A stretch of 64,000 bases of DNA from Planktothrix agardhii NIES-204 (GTDB lineage: Bacteria > Cyanobacteriota > Cyanobacteriia > Cyanobacteriales > Microcoleaceae), in the NCBI GenBank assembly GCA_003609755.1, contig AP017991.1:2001501-2065500 (forward strand). The letters are read 5' to 3'. Positions 31,273 to 46,504 of this stretch are shown here, piece after piece. The position numbers and the translations under genes were made by a program. Each line of letters begins with the position of its first letter. The stretch's first letter is position 1. The notes beneath the pieces are model-generated. The model was not told where the DNA came from. It made no database searches and worked only from the letters and a program-made list of their open reading frames with translations.

Positions 31273-31563
31273 TCATAAGGAAATTGCCTCTTTTAATACT
31301 TGTTGACGAATGCGTTTTTTTAAACCTTTTTCTGTAACAACATCAACTGGACACCCTAATAAATTTTGTAAGTCCATCAGGAGTCCACCTAAATCAAAAA
31401 GACTTCTTCCGAGTTCAAGCTCAACTAAAAAATCTACATCACTATTGGAATCTGCTTCATTTCTAGCCACAGATCCAAAGATTCGGATATTATAGGCTCC
31501 ATATTGAGCCGCAATCCTTAAAATTTCTTGACGATAACTTTTCAGCAGGTCATCAAGGTTCAT
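31273..31563 (-). CDS. MNT-type minimal nucleotidyltransferase, possibly orphan antitoxin
   Basis: The product of 96 residues has the nucleotidyltransferase signature [20 protein letters not shown] (GS-x10-DxD) near residue 28. Small proteins of this kind (MntA) neutralise a HEPN ribonuclease (HepT) by AMPylation. No HEPN gene lies next to it, so it is an orphan or acts on a distant partner. It starts the first of several minus-strand toxin-antitoxin-like genes here. Confidence 0.85.
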
Positions 31564-31674
31564 GAGTTTATTAGGGATTAATGAGTTAAAAACGGTATAG
31601 ATTATTATATCTTAAATTCGATCCATTTTCAAATAATTAAACTTTTTTAAAGAATAGCAATAATCACCATTGAT

Positions 31675-32046
31675 TTACAATAAATAACTATAAGGTAGAT
31701 GAATAATTTGATCCTGGTATTCATCTCTAAAAGAAACCTCTGCTAGAAAAATCAGTTCCTCAATATTTGCACCTATACTTAACTTGGGGTTAAGGATAAA
31801 AATACCAAGAATATGACCCCCTACATTGATATGATCAACCAAGTGAACAGGCATAGAAGCCCGGTTATTTGTTACTAAGATAAAACCTAATTTCTCACAC
31901 CAAGTTAGAATATCTGGATCTAGTGTCCCCATTTTTGGACTATTCGGATCACCAACTCTCCAAACAATTAAATCCCGATTCTGTTTAGCAAGTTGAACTT
32001 TATAGATAGGAGCAATATTTTCATCTAATAGATATTTCAGTTCCAT
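31675..32046 (-). CDS. DUF5615 PIN-like protein (toxin candidate)
   Basis: The sequence opens KYLLDENIAPIYKVQL with the first acidic PIN position. LDPDILTWCEKLGFILVTNN then gives the second acidic residue and conserved TNN of DUF5615 PIN-like proteins. It overlaps the upstream DUF433 gene by 26 bp. DUF433-DUF5615 pairs are a frequent bacterial two-gene unit regarded as toxin-antitoxin-like. Ribonuclease action is inferred from the fold. Confidence 0.85.
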   Translation of the reverse strand: MELKYLLDENIAPIYKVQLAKQNRDLIVWRVGDPNSPKMGTLDPDILTWCEKLGFILVTNNRASMPVHLVDHINVGGHILGIFILNPKLSIGANIEELIFLAEVSFRDEYQDQIIHLPYSYLL

Positions 32047-32374
32047 TATTTTTTCCTGCTCTTTTCATTTCTGCTCGAATTTCGCGTAATCGCAGCAGGG
32101 TTGGTGTTGGATTTAATTGCTGATTTTGCCATTTTTCATGACTCCACTCTAACCAATTGGCAATATATTGATTGATGGTTTCTGTGTTGTGTAAGTAATA
32201 CAAAATTGTGGCATAAACCTGTTCTAAGGTTAAAGATGGGTAGGTTTGAGCAATTTCTTCAGGGGTACGGGCGCGATGAATGAAATCATAAAGAACTGTT
32301 TCGATCCCGATCCGAGTTCCTTTGATCCGAATATCATCAGGACGTAAAAAGTCGAAATAGTCTTCGAGTTGCAT
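32021..32374 (-). CDS. DUF433 protein (antitoxin candidate)
   Basis: The product of 117 residues has the core IRIKGTRIGIETVLYDFIHR, then ARTPEEIAQTYPSLTLEQVY and ATILYYL, the DUF433 winged-helix motif found in the antitoxin partner of PIN-like proteins. The gene precedes and overlaps its probable toxin gene, implying translational coupling. Confidence 0.87.
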   Translation of the reverse strand: MQLEDYFDFLRPDDIRIKGTRIGIETVLYDFIHRARTPEEIAQTYPSLTLEQVYATILYYLHNTETINQYIANWLEWSHEKWQNQQLNPTPTLLRLREIRAEMKRAGKNNGTEISIR

Positions 32375-32455
32375 CGGTTTATCACCCTAGTTAGGATTAA
32401 TTAATTATATCTAAAATTTGATAAATTTTCAAGTATTACACTGTTTTAAATAGGA

Positions 32456-32488
32456 GCGATCGCAAATACAATAATATTAAAACAATAA
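32456..32488. repeat. Copy 1 of a HIP1-headed dispersed repeat
   Basis: GCGATCGC followed by AAATACAATAATATTAAAACAA. The same string occurs twice more within 550 bp, in tandem at 32912-32981. Confidence 0.85.
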
Positions 32489-32496
32489 TTTTAGGG

Positions 32497-32814
32497 TCAT
32501 TTAATGAGTCCCTGGGTGCGAAGTTTTTTAACTAAAGCAGATTCACCTGCTTGTTGACGTAACGTTTCAACATTCTCAAATCGTCGCTGTATATCAGCAT
32601 CTAGTTCTTCTTTATTATCCCAGTAGTAAGCTAAGGTAGAATAAATTTGACTCATGCTTAAATAAGGATGTTGAAATTTAATTTCTTCGGGACTCCAACC
32701 AAAAGACAGATGACCGGAAACTAATTCAATTACTTTCATGGTTGTTCCGGCAATGTAGGGAACGTTGTTTTCATTCAGTTCTATATACTTGTGTTGTGTC
32801 GTAGTCAAGTTCAT
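32497..32814 (-). CDS. Second DUF433 protein, partner missing
   Basis: The product of 105 residues has VPYIAGTTMKVIELVSGHL, SPEEIKFQHPYLSMSQIYST and LAYYWDNKEELD, a DUF433 pattern distinct from its neighbour. The expected downstream PIN-like gene is absent; only an AT-rich spacer with repeats follows. It is therefore an orphan antitoxin-like gene, possibly after loss of its toxin. Confidence 0.83.
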   Translation of the reverse strand: MNLTTTQHKYIELNENNVPYIAGTTMKVIELVSGHLSFGWSPEEIKFQHPYLSMSQIYSTLAYYWDNKEELDADIQRRFENVETLRQQAGESALVKKLRTQGLIK

Positions 32815-32911
32815 AGAGTTTGCCTCGTTACTGAATTTAATTATAGTATATTTTTGGCAATTTCTTCTGGAGTGCGATCGCGATCAATAATTGATATTAA
32901 TATAAGAATGG

Positions 32912-32981
32912 GCGATCGCAAATACAATAATATTAAAACAATTAAGGCGATCGCAAATACAATAATATTAAAACAATTAAT
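32912..32981. repeat. Tandem copies 2 and 3 of the HIP1-headed repeat
   Basis: Two direct copies of GCGATCGC-AAATACAATAATATTAAAACAA with a 35-bp period. The last copy runs up to and over the stop codon of the large fusion gene (32977). Matching copy 1 lies 420 bp away on the far side of the DUF433 gene. Confidence 0.85.
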
Positions 32982-35900
32982 TGGTGGATTTAGAGGCTCG
33001 TTCTTGAGGCAATGTAATCCCTAAGCGTTTTTGTAACGCCTCGATAACTTCTTCCGCATTTTTCTGACCAAAGTTTTTAATTTCTAATAGGTCTTCTTGA
33101 GTATAATCTCGTAAGTCTGCTACTGAGTTAATTTGAGCGCGTTTGAGACAGTTGTAAGCCCGAACTGATAACTGTAATTCTTCAATCGGGATTTGACTCA
33201 TTGGATCGATATCATCATTCTGATCGCTTTTAATCGATTCCGGGGTGATATCTTCTGACTTAGAGGCTCGTTCTTGAGACAATGTAATCCCTAAGCGTTT
33301 TTGTAACGCCTCGATGACTTCTTCAGTAGACTTATGACCGAAGTTTTTAATTTCTAATAGGTCTTCTTGAGTATAATCTAGTAAGTCTCCTACTAAGTTG
33401 ATTTGAGCGCGTTTAAGACAGGTGTAAGCCCGAACTGATAACTGTAATTCTTCAATCGGGATTTGACTCATTGGATCGATATCATCATTCTGATCGCTTT
33501 TAATCGATTCCAGGGTGATATCTTCTGACTTAGAGGCTCGTTCTTGAGGCAATATAATCCCTAAGCGTTTTTGTAACGCCTCGATGACTTCTTCAGCAGA
33601 CTTCTGACCAAAGTTTTTAATTTTTAAGAGGTCTTCTTGAGTATAACCTCGTAAGTCTGCTACTGATTTGATTTGAGCGCGTTTGAGACAGTTATAAGCC
33701 CGAACCGATAACTGTAGTTCTTCAATCGGGATTTGACTGGTTGGATCAATATTCTGATCGCTTTTAATCGATTCCAGGGTGATATCTTGTAACGGTGTAA
33801 ACAAATCTACTAAAATTGTCGCGGCGACAGCGATGGCTTCTTGGGGGGTGTAACTCCCATTTGTCCAAATTTCCATAATCAGTCGGTCTTTTTCTAAAGT
33901 TCCACCAACCCGCGCTTCCTCAACGGTATAATTGACTTTTCGCACAGGCATAAACACGGCATCAATTTGCAGAAAATCTACAGCCGTTGCATCATCATGA
34001 CTGCGTTCAACCGCGCGATATCCGGTTCCCTTCTCAACTTGGAATTCCATTTCCAAGGTTGCCCCAGGAGCCAGGGTAGCGATATATTGATTTTTGTCTA
34101 CGACCTCAACTTCTGAAGGCAACTTAAAATGACCCGCCGTTACCGTCGCTGGGCCTTGAACTTCTAAGCGACCAATTTGCTTTTGGTGGTGGTGGGTATA
34201 GCTTTTGAGTACAACTTCTTTTAGGTTCAGCAGAATCTCTAAAACATCTTCTCTAACCCCTTGAATCGTTGCAAACTCATGATTAACATTGGCAAACCGT
34301 GCTGATGTAATCGCCGTTCCTTCTAAGTTCGAGAGTAAAACCCGTCTCAGAGCATTACCAACTGTCCTCCCTTGACCCCATTCTAAAGGCTCTAAGACGA
34401 ATTTTCCGTACTGGCTCCGGTCTGTATCAGTGTTCGATTGAGTCACCCGAACAATTTTTGGTGTTGGACTTGGGGTAGGAGTTGGTGTTGGACTTGGGGT
34501 AGGAGTTGGTGTTGGACTTGGGGTAGGAGTTGGTGTTGGACTTGGAGTCGGAGTTGGTGTTGGACTTGGAGTCGGAGTTGGTGTTGGACTTGGAGTCGGA
34601 GTTGGTGTTGGACTTGGAGTCGGAGTTGGTGTTGGACTTGGGGTAGGAGTTGGTGTTGGACTTGGGGTTGGACTTGGAGTAGGACTTGGACTTTGAGTCA
34701 CCCGAACAATTTTAAACTCAGCTAAATCGATAATATTCTCTGGGATAGCTTTAGCAGAAACTTCATAACTTCCTTCAGCATCCTCTGATGGAACAAAATA
34801 ACCATTCTGATTAATTGTTCCCCCTGTTGCCTCCCATGCAATATAATTAGTTTTGATAAAATCTCCCTGTTGATCAAATCCAGTAACGTGAAATTGAAAG
34901 TCTTGATCAGAATTAATTTCAACTGGTTCAGGATTAATTTTTATTTTTAACGTTCTTAAAACAGGAATAACCTGGATATGAACAGAATGACTAATTTGAG
35001 CAAAATTAATACAAGAGTCACCCACCCAATCTAATAAACGAATAGTTATTTTAATCGCTTGTTTGATCACCCAGGCTTGCAAATCGATTTCAAAATTAGA
35101 TAGTTCTGAAGACGAATTTTGCTCAGAAGCGGTGGAAATATTATTAGTTGTTTCAGATTGATCTTGAATCTCTGTTTCCGCAGAATTAGGAAATAATACA
35201 CTCCGAATTTTATCACTCAGAGAAGATAACCGTTCTGTCCAGTAAATACTCCGAGATATTAATTTTGTATAAATGCCCAATGCTAATATTTTTGAGCGCA
35301 TATCATAGGGAGATAATGGAGAAACTTTAGCCGTTACTTTATATAACCCTTTATCATTATCGTTAGCTGTAAATTCCCCATTCTGATCAATTTTTCCTCC
35401 TGTTGCTTCCCAGACAATATTTCCTGTTTCAAATTTATTTCCATATTGATCAAACCCAACGACATTAAAAGTTCTACTTTTATTGGGTTCAACAAAAATA
35501 TGCTGATAAGGATTAATGCGAATCTGTCTTAAAACAGGTAATATATTAACAGTTGCACTAACTTGAAGTGAGCCAACTTTAGCCGTCACAGTAACTTGCT
35601 CTTTTTCATAACCTCCTTTGAAAATTCCCTCTTGGTTAATTCGACCTCCGGCGGTACATTTCCATTCAATATTATTCACCCACATCCAATTTCCAATCTG
35701 ATCTAAACCCATAACTTGAAACGTGATAGGTTCATTAGGTTCAGCAAAAATAGTCTGCGGTGAAATGATCAGATCAGTTAAAGTAGAAGGAACAATAATT
35801 TCAGCCGTTGCGCTAATTGTTTGACCCGGAATTGAAGCGGTGACGGTGAATTGTCCTTCACTATTATCCCCAACGGTATAATTTCCCTTGTCGTAAATTG

Positions 35901-38094
35901 TGCCCCCGGTTGCAGTCCAATTAACATTTTTAATTGCAATAGAATTTCCTCTTTGGTCTAAACCCTGAACTGTAAATTTATGGCTTTGACCAGGACACAT
36001 TTCTATCAATGATGGAGAAATGCTCAAAGACGTTAATCTTGAACGTTCAATAACTTCAACTTGGACAGATTGACTAATGGTTTCAACTTTTGCGGTAATA
36101 GTAACTGTTTGTTCAAAGTGACCCGCAACAAATTTTCCATTATTAAGAAGTTCTATATTGTCAGCCGTCCAACGGACTTGTCCGATGGAAATAGGTTGAT
36201 TATATTGATCAAAACCTTTAGCACTAAATTGTTGAGAGTCACCACAATATAAAGTTGTGATTGAAGGATTAATTTTTAACGCTGTTAGTTTGGGTTGTTC
36301 AAGAATTGTAATTGAAATTTGACAATTAACAGAGTTAACTTGTGCTTGAATCGTAAAGTTAGAACCTGATATATTTCCGGCTTTAAATAGTCCCTTGTTA
36401 ATGGTTCCACCTGTAGCTGTCCAACTCACTTGTCCTATGGGAATAGGTTGATTGTATTGATCAACACCTTCAGCACTAAATCGTTCAGAATAACCACAAT
36501 ATAAAGTTTTTCCTGGGGGATTAATTTTTAACGATCTTAGTTTAGGTTTTTCAAGAATTGTAACTGACGCTTGACAACTAACCGTGTTAACTTTAGCGTG
36601 AACTGTAAAGTTAGAATTTGATATATTTCCAGCCGTAAATAATCCGTTGTTAATAGTTCCACCTGTAGATGTCCAATTAATTTGATCAATTTTAATGGGC
36701 TGATTATATTGATCAAAGCCTTCAACCTTAAATCGTTCAGAATAACCACCATATAAAGTTGTTTTTGAAGGATTAATTATTAACGATCTTAGTTTAGGAG
36801 ACTCACCTTCTAAAACCTCTAAAATTTCTCCTTTTTGCAAATCCCAAAGTTTAATCCAATCCCGACTACCGCTTACAAATCGCTTACCATTAGAACTAAC
36901 AGCAATAGAACTAATAAATCCAGAATGACCTGTAATTATATGAGGTTGATTAAGGTCTTGAATATAAATACTGCCATTATTGGTTCCTATTACTTTAATA
37001 TTACCCTGAGAAGTAATATCAAAATCACTCATTGTTTGAAATGTTACGGTGGTAGTCTTAACACATTTTAAAGTATTGACTGGGAATTGAAATTGAGATT
37101 CATTATTACTCTTTCCAAAAAAGAAAGCCTGGGTTAAAAAAGGAATAGTTAAAGTTGTTCCTGCTGTGAATTTCGCTAAAATCGCCGATATAATCCAGAC
37201 AATGATATAACCCAAAGGAATATTAAATTTTTCAGTTTTGGCTGGAGTATTGGGATCTTTTTGCCAAATTTTAAGAGTTCCATCTCGACTACCTGTAACT
37301 AAAGATTGATTATCAGAACTAATGGCGACATTTTGAATCCAATCTGAATGTCCTTCAAGAGTTCTTAATAATTGTTTTTTTGTCAAACCCCATAATTTTA
37401 TGGTTTTATCTGTACTTCCACTCACTAAAAATTTACTATCTGAACTTATTGCTAAACAAGAAATCCATCCGGTATGACCATTAAAAGTATGGACAAGTTC
37501 TTTCTTTTCTAAATTCCAGACTTTAATCGTTTTATCTGCACTTCCACTAATTAAGGTTTGATTATCTGGGGTAATTTTAACCACATTAACCCAACTTGTA
37601 TGACCTGTAAAAGTATGCAAAAGAGTTTTAGTTTTTAAATTCCATAACTTAACAGTTTTGTCAATACTACTACTAACTAAATATTGACCATTGGAACTAA
37701 TCGCAACGGATAAAACCCAATGGGAATGAGCATCAAGGGTATTAATTAATTTTCCTGTCTCTAAATTCCAAATTCTGATGGTTTTCCAACCGCCACCGAC
37801 GATAATTTTATATTCTGAACTAATTGCTACACAGGAAATAGTATCTTGAGGTATAATATTAGGCGATCGCAAATTAACATTTTCAGTTAAATAAGGATTA
37901 TTACCATACAACACCCAATACGCAGATTGTTTAACCTGTTCTGAAGGGTCGGTTAATGCTTGCTGCGCTAGTAAATCTAAACCTTGCTCAAATTTTAGAC
38001 AGTCTGAAAGTGCTTTAAGTCGTTGTTGAAGGTCTGGACTGGTGAATTGACCCCGAAGATTCTGGATAGCTGGCCGTTCAGAGGGTTCGGTCAT
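32977..38094 (-). CDS. WD40/Ig-like repeat protein fused to RNA polymerase alpha with three alpha-CTDs
   Basis: One uninterrupted frame of 1705 codons. Residues 1-80 are helical, HEAT-like. About 85-285 hold five WD40 repeats, about 295-330 a hydrophobic segment ([17 protein letters not shown]), and about 340-432 two more WD40 repeats. Residues 436-1130 contain seven Ig-like repeats of about 83 residues ([15 protein letters not shown]) with a helical insert at 932-1040. A Ser/Pro/Thr linker spans 1133-1213. From S1220 the sequence is a full alpha N-terminal domain ([58 protein letters not shown]). Three alpha-CTDs follow, at about 1453-1515, 1542-1607 and 1632-1697. No rplQ or rpsK flanks it, so it is not the housekeeping rpoA. 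Function is unknown; incorporation into RNA polymerase is inference. Confidence 0.9.
32985..33790 (-). repeat. Three 270-bp tandem repeats encoding alpha-CTDs
   Basis: The string TAGAGGCTCGTTCTTGAG starts at 32991, 33261 and 33531, an exact 270-bp (90-codon) period. The unit nearest the linker is 6 bp shorter in the segment before SQIPIEEL. The copies are highly similar, indicating fairly recent in-gene duplication. The protein copies differ at several DNA-contact positions. Confidence 0.9.
34440..34713 (-). repeat. Ser-Pro-Thr-Pro linker array bounded by 19-bp direct repeats
   Basis: A 24-bp unit encoding SPTPTPTP is repeated eight times, plus shorter variants. The array is flanked by GAGTCACCCGAACAATTTT at 34440-34458 and again at 34695-34713. 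Each flank encodes KIVRVTQ, so the peptide before the linker is repeated right at the junction with the alpha domain. Confidence 0.9.
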
Positions 38095-45121: not shown

Positions 45122-46504
45122 CTAGTCTAAATCAGGCATAGAAAGTACAGCTTCCGATTTCCGGTCAATGCCTTTCTCGAAGCCAGCCACCGCAGCCCGG
45201 GCGCGACCGGCGTGCCAGAGGTGACCAATCAAGAAGAAGAAACCCACGATGAAGTGGAAACCAGCCAACCAAGCCCGGGGGTTAACATAGTTAAACCCTT
45301 GAGCTTCGGTAATAATCCCACCCACGGAGTTAATCGAACCGTTAGGGGCGTGGGTCATGTACTCAGAAGCCCGACGAATTTGCCAAGGTTGGATATCGTT
45401 TTTCAGCTTGTTGAGGTCAAGACCATTAGGCCCACGCAGAGGCTCTAACCAAGGGCCACGGAAATCCCAGAAGCGCATGGTTTCACCACCAAAGATGATT
45501 TCCCCAGTCGGAGAACGCATCAGGTATTTACCCAGACCTGTCGGGCCTTGGGCCGAACCAATATTCGCACCCAGTTTTTGGTCACGGACTAAGAACACAA
45601 AGGACTGAGACTGAGAAGATTCAGCGTTTGTGGGGCCGTAGAACTCACTGGGATAAGCGGTATTATTAAACCAAACATAGGAAGCAGCGATAAAGCCCAT
45701 CAAAGACAGAGCGCCTAAACTGTAAGACAGATAAGCCTCTCCAGACCAGATGAAAGCCCGACGCGCCCAGCCAAAGGGTTTGGTTAGGATGTGCCAGATA
45801 CCACCGGAAATGCAGATCAGACCAATCCAGATGTGACCGCCGATGATGTCTTCCATGTTGTCAACACCGATGATCCAGCCTTCTCCCCCAAACGGAGCTT
45901 TAACTAAATAGCCAAAGATCGCGGCCGGGTTCAAAGTCGGATTGGCAATCACACGGACATCGCCACCACCTGGGGCCCAAGTGTCATAGACACCCCCAAA
46001 GAACATGGCTTTGAACACTAACAGGAAAGCCCCCAGACCCAATATAATCAGGTGATACCCGATAATATTGGTCATTTGGTTTTTGTCTTTCCAGTCATAA
46101 CCAAAGAAAGAAGAATATTCTTCTAAAATTTCAGGGCCACGGACGGCATGATAAATACCGCCTAAACCCAAAACCGCAGAGGAAATTAAGTGCAGAACCC
46201 CAATCACGAAGTAGGGGAAGATATCAATCACTTCACCACCAGGGCCCACACCCCAACCGAGGGTAGCCATGTGGGGGATCAGGATCAAACCCTGTTCATA
46301 CATGGGCTTTTCGGGAACGAAGTGAGCCACTTCAAACAGTGTCATCGCCCCAGCCCAGAACACGATCAAACCAGCGTGAGCAACGTGAGCGCCCAGCAAC
46401 TTACCAGACAAATTAATCAAACGGGCATTACCTGACCACCAGGCGAATCCAGTGGATTCTAGGTCACGGCCGCCGACATAAGAAGTATTAGAGAGCGTTA
46501 CCAC
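45122..46504 (-). CDS. psbC: Photosystem II CP43 chlorophyll-binding protein
   Basis: The product is 460 residues from the GTG start of [14 protein letters not shown], the usual psbC start, overlapping psbD by 17 bp. A 26-codon upstream extension is unlike CP43. Six helices carry His ligands for chlorophyll. The large lumenal loop has [13 protein letters not shown] and the Mn-cluster segment [14 protein letters not shown] with its conserved Arg and Glu. CP43 is an inner antenna and contributes to the oxygen-evolving site. It is translated in tandem with D2. Confidence 0.98.

Follow-up and report, generated by a model that had tools for sequence, protein, structure and literature searches.

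A second RNA polymerase alpha subunit on a WD40 and Ig-like scaffold in Planktothrix agardhii, and related scaffolds that end in polymerase parts

What is a complete alpha subunit of RNA polymerase doing at the end of a large repeat protein? The question is raised by a single open reading frame (ORF) of Planktothrix agardhii NIES-204 lying in the window, the term used here for the whole stretch of 64,000 nucleotides that was analyzed (GenBank assembly GCA_003609755.1, contig AP017991.1, positions 2,001,501 to 2,065,500). The ORF starts with ATG, has zero internal stops and joins WD40 and immunoglobulin-like (Ig-like) repeats to a copy of alpha, the product of rpoA. It belongs to a cyanobacterial scaffold family in which other members end in other parts of RNA polymerase. 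The simplest common denominator of these proteins is that any captured subunit would place the scaffold on RNA polymerase, a proposition for which the chances are considered about even. No published description of a scaffold family with polymerase subunits was found in searches of openly licensed papers.

The additional alpha and its recurrence

An earlier note on this DNA had described a WD40 part, seven Ig-like repeats, a Pro-rich linker, a complete alpha N-terminal domain (NTD) and three alpha C-terminal domains (CTDs) in one frame, and had taken this alpha to be an additional one with its beta-contact motif preserved. The domain order is borne out by the ORF, by Pfam and by an eye count of the Ig-like repeats (Table 1). 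Pfam matches comprise WD40 (five stretches), RNA_pol_L (74.8 bits), RNA_pol_A_bac (117.1 bits) and three to RNA_pol_A_CTD, with a Big_1 Ig-like match in the middle part, while the triplication of the CTD takes the form of a 270-bp tandem repeat (32990-33788). When aligned to solved structures, the alpha NTD was matched over residues 8-231 of the 231-residue query, the best chains being 8h3v_C, 8gzg_A and 8syi_A, all from structures which are presumably cyanobacterial. A structure model of the Ig and helical part had a mean predicted local distance difference test (pLDDT) score of 53, which is of low confidence, and was not used. The end of the fusion gene is also marked by an exact 35-bp tandem duplication (32911-32980), which extends from the stop codon in the direction of the adjoining DUF433 gene.

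In the genome of the window (G000; 5.08 Mb, 5 contigs, 99.99% complete) RNA_pol_A_bac is matched twice, by the fusion and by an ordinary rpoA of 336 aa at G000:C1:2167169, the neighbors of which are rpsM, rpsK and rplQ (named by eye from sequence). Similarly, three of its four RNA_pol_A_CTD matches lie in the fusion and one in rpoA. Because a normal rpoA is present elsewhere in the genome, beside rpsK and rplQ, the alpha of the window is indeed an additional one. The place in the ribosomal operon is occupied by the ordinary gene and not by the fusion, which rules out a relocation of the operon's rpoA to the window. The number of CTDs departs from the single one of ordinary RpoA, with three in the fusions of G000 and G001 and two in that of G009, the fusion of G003 having one.

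A second alpha is present in four of the ten Planktothrix genomes searched, namely G000, G001 (P. rubescens PCC 7821, a 1711-aa frame in a 5.46-Mb contig), G009 (a 1728-aa frame) and G003. In the last of these the fusion is split over two contigs: in the large contig a gap of N separates the linker from the front half of the neighboring kinase gene, and a second contig of 4192 bp extends from the back half of the kinase to the linker and carries the alpha part. The two contigs are read, unjoined, as one fusion gene, which ends shortly after its first CTD. The domain order that the earlier note had proposed to seek in other genomes was therefore found in G001, G009 and, on two contigs, G003. 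As the same fusion occurs in all three, the joint is not a misassembly at the linker, the event which that note had seen as fatal to its reading. Among 61 genomes of the family no further genome has an intact second alpha, with G029 and G055 giving two partial matches each.

In the first CTD of the fusions the positions aligned to R265, N268, C269, G296, K298, S299 and E302, which we take to be the DNA-contact positions of the alpha CTD, are kept, with the exception of K298 in G009. Comparison with RpoA of E. coli K-12 shows R45, L48 and K86 to be kept in all four fusions, so that the beta-contact motif of the NTD (R45, L48) stands as described, while the residues at positions 173 and 200 of the fusions are I and R, those of the genome's own RpoA and not those of E. 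coli. In E. coli alpha, substitutions at 45 and 48 hinder binding to beta and those at 86, 173 and 200 hinder binding to beta-prime (PMC3294249).

The scaffold family and its C-terminal slot

Two profiles were used to find relatives of the scaffold, A2 covering the Ig region and the broader A3, built from five rows with G000 among them. Profile A2 is matched in 19 of 61 family genomes; for A3 there are matches in 32 of the 388 genomes of the order that were sampled, and in two of the 15 genomes in the family of G171. The fusion of G000, itself one of the A3 rows, scores 466.5 bits. A sample of the phylum gave 10 matches in 386 genomes, all 10 from the same order, the number of the 386 outside that order not being listed. 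A purely Planktothrix oddity is ruled out, the A3 profile matching beyond the genus.

Thirty members were read from 29 of the 32 genomes (G007, G104 and G206 were left out). The C-terminal part was run against Pfam for 26 of them, the alpha of G001, G003 and G009 was recognized by Pfam profile and the tail of G267 was read by eye. An RNA polymerase part is present at the C-terminus of ten, with the scaffold joined upstream of the captured part in every case. Alpha is found in four (G000, G001, G003 on two contigs, and G009), a lone alpha CTD in G004 (84.1 bits), SigA with regions 1.2 to 4 in G008, another sigma-70 in G171 and G233, beta with Rpb2 domains 1, 2, 3, 45, 6 and 7 over 1093 aa in G018, and an omega-like tail in G011 (Rpb6/omega family, 24.2 and 26.0 bits against a Pfam cut-off of 26), which is no recent duplicate of the rpoZ in that genome. 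The CTD of G004 may be the remnant of a full alpha or a separate capture. In the other 20 no polymerase part was recognized: 11 have further WD40 repeats as tail (ten by Pfam, G267 by eye), four have the motif WFYR..LFY(Y)DGYS (a paralogue in G009, G043, G047 and G383) and two have only LFYDGYS (G095, G130), neither type having a Pfam family in the tail, while nothing was recognized in G106, G232 and G387, the last with a sub-threshold match to DUF5907. Among the 30 members read, neither beta-prime nor any housekeeping protein outside RNA polymerase was recognized at the slot.

The motif WFYRSQLFYDGYS occurs in tails of scaffold members that are without a polymerase part. The WFYR..LFY(Y)DGYS tails are those of loci L034 (G009:C59), L038, L045 and L052, with L058 and L064 showing the motif in part, and the motif possibly serves for binding.

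When distinguished by subunit, at least four separate captures are indicated by the sequences, these being alpha and SigA in Planktothrix, a second sigma in the Geminocystis family and beta in G018. The captured SigA shares 310 of 315 residues with that of its own genome; the second sigma, 85-86% identical to a sigma of 323-326 aa in its own genomes, shares only 248 of 303 and 263 of 303. In a tree of the A3 region (29 proteins, G130 being under the score limit) the four tail classes require at least eight changes. The Planktothrix polymerase carriers are grouped (95/98), next to the G009 paralogue with the motif tail, and the sigma proteins of the Geminocystis family and the beta protein of G018 are placed elsewhere, with long branches joining both and their placement unsure.

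A normal counterpart was found in every case tested: rpoA for the four alpha carriers, SigA for G008, a near sigma for G171 and G233, rpoZ for G011 and rpoB for G018. In the G018 assembly the ordinary rpoB reads in two frames, perhaps because of an error in the sequence. Over 3284 nt it shares 99.3% identity with the scaffold-fused gene, which is open. This ordinary gene lies upstream of rpoC1 near 5.08 Mb of G018:C1 (L069, 2017-5474), in a one-contig assembly. One of the fusions is plasmid-borne, as the G233 contig matches plasmid pGM01 of Geminocystis sp. NIES-3708 (60,790 bp).

A simple hydropathy scan found hydrophobic stretches in G000, G004, G018, G171 and others and none in the fusions of G001, G003, G008 and G009. 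The proteins of L063/L070 (G018), L053 (G171) and L046 (G080, the frame of which begins near a contig end) start with strongly hydrophobic stretches, followed by the Ig repeats, and lack a clear WD40 part at the N-terminus, an arrangement that would fit membrane anchoring. It should also be mentioned that DUF499-containing proteins on plasmids of Planktothrix (NZ_LR882968.1, NZ_LR882937.1, NZ_LR882956.1) and Geminocystis (NZ_AP014817.1) show, in some stretches, distant similarity to the scaffold's Ig part.

Origin, constraint and surroundings of the fusion

In three of the fusions the joint reads TCCATCG-GTG-GC, followed by a short difference and then TTTAAGATTGAGTGTATTGAATCG. Because this matches the end of the rpoA leader and the start of rpoA, it suggests that the copied alpha piece starts a short way ahead of the rpoA start codon. 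At the joint, three fusions retain GTG, the start codon of rpoA; the copy of the window is without it. The first alpha strand is VAGFKIECIES in the three other fusions, close to true rpoA, and KIVRVTQS in that of G000, where this sequence, also found after the last Ig repeat, replaces the strand. Patches of 92-100% identity between rpoA and the fusion may reflect conversion between the copies. A 14-residue stretch of the G000, G001 and G003 fusions recurs, its last residues aside, in the ordinary RpoA of G000, G001, G002, G004 and G007, while that of G003, G006, G008 and G009 has SVRVAGVNHEFAT in its place; gene conversion from or to the fusion is a possible origin.

Ratios of non-synonymous to synonymous divergence (dN/dS) were obtained pairwise from Nei-Gojobori counts by our own script, with no model choice. 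For the alpha NTD, any fusion against any rpoA gives 0.10-0.20 (synonymous divergence, dS, 0.41-0.58), and fusions among themselves give 0.13 for G000-G001 and 0.30-0.41 between different species. Pairs of rpoA give 0.02-0.15, the exception being G000-G001 (0.31), where there are almost no differences. On these counts the fused alpha is under purifying selection that is relaxed relative to rpoA, yet real. The 153-codon Ig segment has dN/dS of 0.16-0.64 in 15 pairs of six Planktothrix copies (G008 not included). Since the fusions of G000 and G009 differ less (dS 0.22; 0.25 for the Ig segment) than their rpoA genes (dS 0.57), exchange of the fusion between species is pointed to.

The captured SigA of G008 differs from the genome's own by 69 synonymous and 6 non-synonymous changes (dN/dS 0.02), a constraint equal in strength to that among true SigA genes (0.01-0.03). 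As by dS it is nearer to SigA of G000 (0.27) than to its own (0.43), transfer is suggested here also. The captured sigma of G171 and G233 gives dN/dS of 0.09 and 0.12 against the own sigma, at dS of 1.03 and 0.93. Such whole-length constraint would be expected either of a sigma still able to bind both polymerase and promoters or of a bait needing to stay recognizable.

The genes beside the fusion are toxin-antitoxin-like, as they had been called in the earlier note: a minus-strand cluster at 31273-32814 codes for a nucleotidyltransferase (PADLOC PDC-S09), a DUF5615-like protein (below cut-off) and two DUF433 proteins. The toxin-antitoxin-like set near the scaffold varies between Planktothrix genomes and includes a nucleotidyltransferase/HEPN-like pair and an HNH-like gene, both recognized by eye. 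The kinase gene is kept beside the scaffold gene in G001, G003, G004 and G008; around the fusion of G009 it did not appear in the 15 kb that were read. Elsewhere in the window, IsrR, which is the antisense RNA of isiA, is matched in Rfam (170 bits) on the plus strand at 45907-46093, so that an isiA gene is expected on the opposite strand.

Table 1. Features of the fusion gene and adjoining genes, in positions of the window
Feature	Position	Strand	Basis
Ser/Thr kinase with seven WD40 stretches, PD-T4-6 438 bits	29200..31224	+	Pfam, PADLOC
DUF433 protein, 105 aa, adjoins the fusion; like protein nearby in G001, G003, G009, G004	32497..32814	-	Pfam, synteny
Whole fusion ORF (scaffold, linker, alpha with three CTDs), 1705 aa	32977..38094	-	ORF, Pfam
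Alpha CTD 3 (N at the E. coli S299 position)	33028..33213	-	Pfam, alignment
Alpha CTD 2 (T at the E. coli N268 position)	33298..33483	-	Pfam, alignment
Alpha CTD 1	33568..33753	-	Pfam, alignment
Complete alpha NTD (dimerization and insert domain), 196/216 compared residues as in the genome's own RpoA	33784..34458	-	Pfam, alignment
Pro-Thr linker, 24-bp tandem repeat (34458-34689)	34458..34692	-	tandem repeats
Seven Ig-like (Big_1-type) repeats, helical insert between sixth and seventh	34693..36798	-	Pfam; eye count
Helical insert, about residues 925-1035, within family profile A3	34990..35322	-	profile A3
WD40 repeats, about residues 84-426; hydrophobic insert at about residues 289-325 in the genome of the window	36817..37845	-	Pfam
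N-terminal segment, about residues 1-75, HEAT-like by eye, without Pfam match	37870..38094	-	sequence

Possible roles of a scaffold with a polymerase slot

The proposal favored here is that of a scaffold family, WD40 and/or Ig-like and in some members with hydrophobic segments, the C-terminal slot of which has been filled repeatedly by a copy of a polymerase subunit; in the gene of the window the slot holds a full alpha on a flexible Pro-Thr linker. Some of the cell's RNA polymerase would be assembled with the captured subunit replacing the normal one, and the scaffold, lying upstream of the captured part, leaves the alpha dimer and beta-contact positions intact. An enzyme so marked would carry a large interaction surface and could be brought to a protein complex, to the membrane or to a factor at particular promoters. 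The case for tethering is strengthened by the presence of sigma or beta, in place of alpha, on related scaffolds, and chance is by our own estimate hard to invoke because at least four captures are all of polymerase parts out of several thousand genes. An adhesive role, which the earlier note had offered beside a sensory one, finds no support in the analysis. In members with other tails, the tail may itself provide the link to polymerase, as argued from their fused counterparts.

Several observations weigh against this proposal. The second alpha is absent in six of the ten Planktothrix genomes (G005, 73% complete, gave no alpha at all), 20 of the 30 family members are without a recognizable polymerase part, and the lone CTD of G004 is unable to assemble as alpha does. 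Constraint on the fused alpha is weaker than on rpoA, in the comparison between species given above, and the second and third CTDs of the window's copy have changed DNA-contact positions (T at 268 and N at 299, respectively). In the gene table of pGM01, which is known to be incomplete, the sigma part is the only one listed as a gene, with ATT as first codon. Assembly into polymerase is inferred.

The chief alternative, considered unlikely, is that the fusion is an integrated decoy, the captured subunit being a bait for phage or plasmid proteins that attack polymerase and its binding or modification triggering the scaffold or a partner. Sigma is a known phage target. So is alpha, Rac leading to its cleavage between its domains (PMC7552054), and conflict systems acting on polymerase have already been proposed (PMC8195603). 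Different baits in one slot would explain the variety of tails just as well as tethering does, and the baits closely resemble host proteins (196 of 216 residues in the alpha NTD, 310 of 315 in SigA, 99.3% of 3284 nt in beta). The signs of exchange between species (G000-G009 dS of 0.22 for the fusion against 0.57 for rpoA), the plasmid copy of G233, and the adjoining toxin-antitoxin-like genes, with the PDC-S09 match of the nucleotidyltransferase, and kinase, with its PD-T4-6 match, are also in keeping with a decoy. However, neither Pfam (best 25 of 51 families) nor PADLOC gave an effector or signaling domain for the fusion, the PADLOC matches of the fusion falling on its WD40 part and CTDs, the PD-T4-6 models probably match many ordinary kinases, and the purifying selection along the whole of sigma is equally needed by a working sigma. 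A spare subunit, used as an ordinary extra alpha, sigma or beta after release by an internal start or by proteolysis of the linker, with the scaffold incidental, is rather improbable. The GTG codon kept at the joint in three fusions, the sigma part listed alone in Geminocystis and the fused beta of G018, which would be the sole unbroken copy if the two-frame rpoB were real, speak for it. Against this, the fused alpha is not preceded by the purine-rich stretch found ahead of the rpoA start, a point in favor of tethering, and the window's copy has lost the GTG, while the scaffold is in frame in the fusions read and its Ig segment has the dN/dS given above. An internal start as the source of the main product was set aside on account of the missing purine-rich stretch and is retained only within this rival.

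Neutral accretion, meaning chance fusion of repeat-rich genes with duplicated housekeeping genes and a polymerase part without function, is most improbable. Active recombination is indeed indicated by the tandem repeats at linker and CTDs and by the identity patches with rpoA, constraint on the alpha part is looser than on rpoA and the G003 fusion ends shortly after its first CTD, but the captures are all of RNA polymerase parts out of thousands of genes and the captured sigma has dN/dS of 0.02-0.12 at dS of 0.43-1.03 against the own copy. Both this and the spare subunit are less likely than tethering or a decoy. An assembly artefact at repeats is hardly credible. The Pro-Thr repeat adjoins the gap in the G003 assembly and the two beta copies of G018 are nearly alike; against this, the fusion occurs in separate genomes, including that of P. 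rubescens PCC 7821 within a large contig, and the fused and normal copies of alpha and sigma differ at many synonymous sites. Misassembly is ruled out by these two observations.

The tethering proposal has a man-made parallel. In laboratory bacterial two-hybrid systems a protein fused to alpha or omega brings polymerase to that protein's partner, and a scaffold-bearing polymerase would act on the same working principle, although the laboratory partner is usually fused behind the alpha NTD or omega and not in front. In nature, Francisella has a second, diverged rpoA, the product of which enters RNA polymerase in a heterodimer, so that mixed alpha dimers have a precedent; its two rpoA genes are without a reported scaffold, and no sigma or beta versions are mentioned in the available text (PMC3294249). 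The CAAD domain, which was repeatedly acquired by different cyanobacterial aminoacyl-tRNA synthetases and gave them a new location, is likewise one accessory module joined independently many times to one housekeeping machinery in cyanobacteria (PMC4893482). It differs in pairing translation enzymes with a membrane-targeting domain instead of polymerase with a large repeat scaffold, and, unlike CAAD, the scaffold fusions use an extra copy while the normal subunit gene stays. In a published survey covering 4193 sigma-70 proteins of cyanobacteria, some of them have an accessory domain (WD40, NB-ARC, Ank or TPR) at an end, and sigma with WD40 is for this reason partly known already; the survey is of sigma only and, in the part available, mentions neither an Ig-like scaffold nor alpha or beta on the same scaffold (PMC11119718). 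Conflict systems with a GreA/B-C domain are also modular bacterial proteins predicted to reach and act on RNA polymerase, through a borrowed transcription-factor domain, and differ in carrying effector domains and in that their polymerase-binding part is a factor domain and not a copy of an enzyme subunit (PMC8195603).

A fuller picture, held at somewhat less than even chances, is that in one order of cyanobacteria horizontally exchanged scaffolds with an exchangeable slot (alpha, alpha CTD, sigma, beta, perhaps omega) form a minority of scaffold-bearing polymerases that tie transcription to a place, a complex or a signal, while those with tails of other kinds bind the enzyme as outside partners. 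Bacterial RNA polymerase is usually viewed as one core enzyme with exchangeable sigma factors. If the tethering or the decoy reading is true, some bacteria would run a second, physically tethered polymerase population, or would keep polymerase decoys, and domain capture would have been aimed repeatedly at one molecular machine, its core subunits included.

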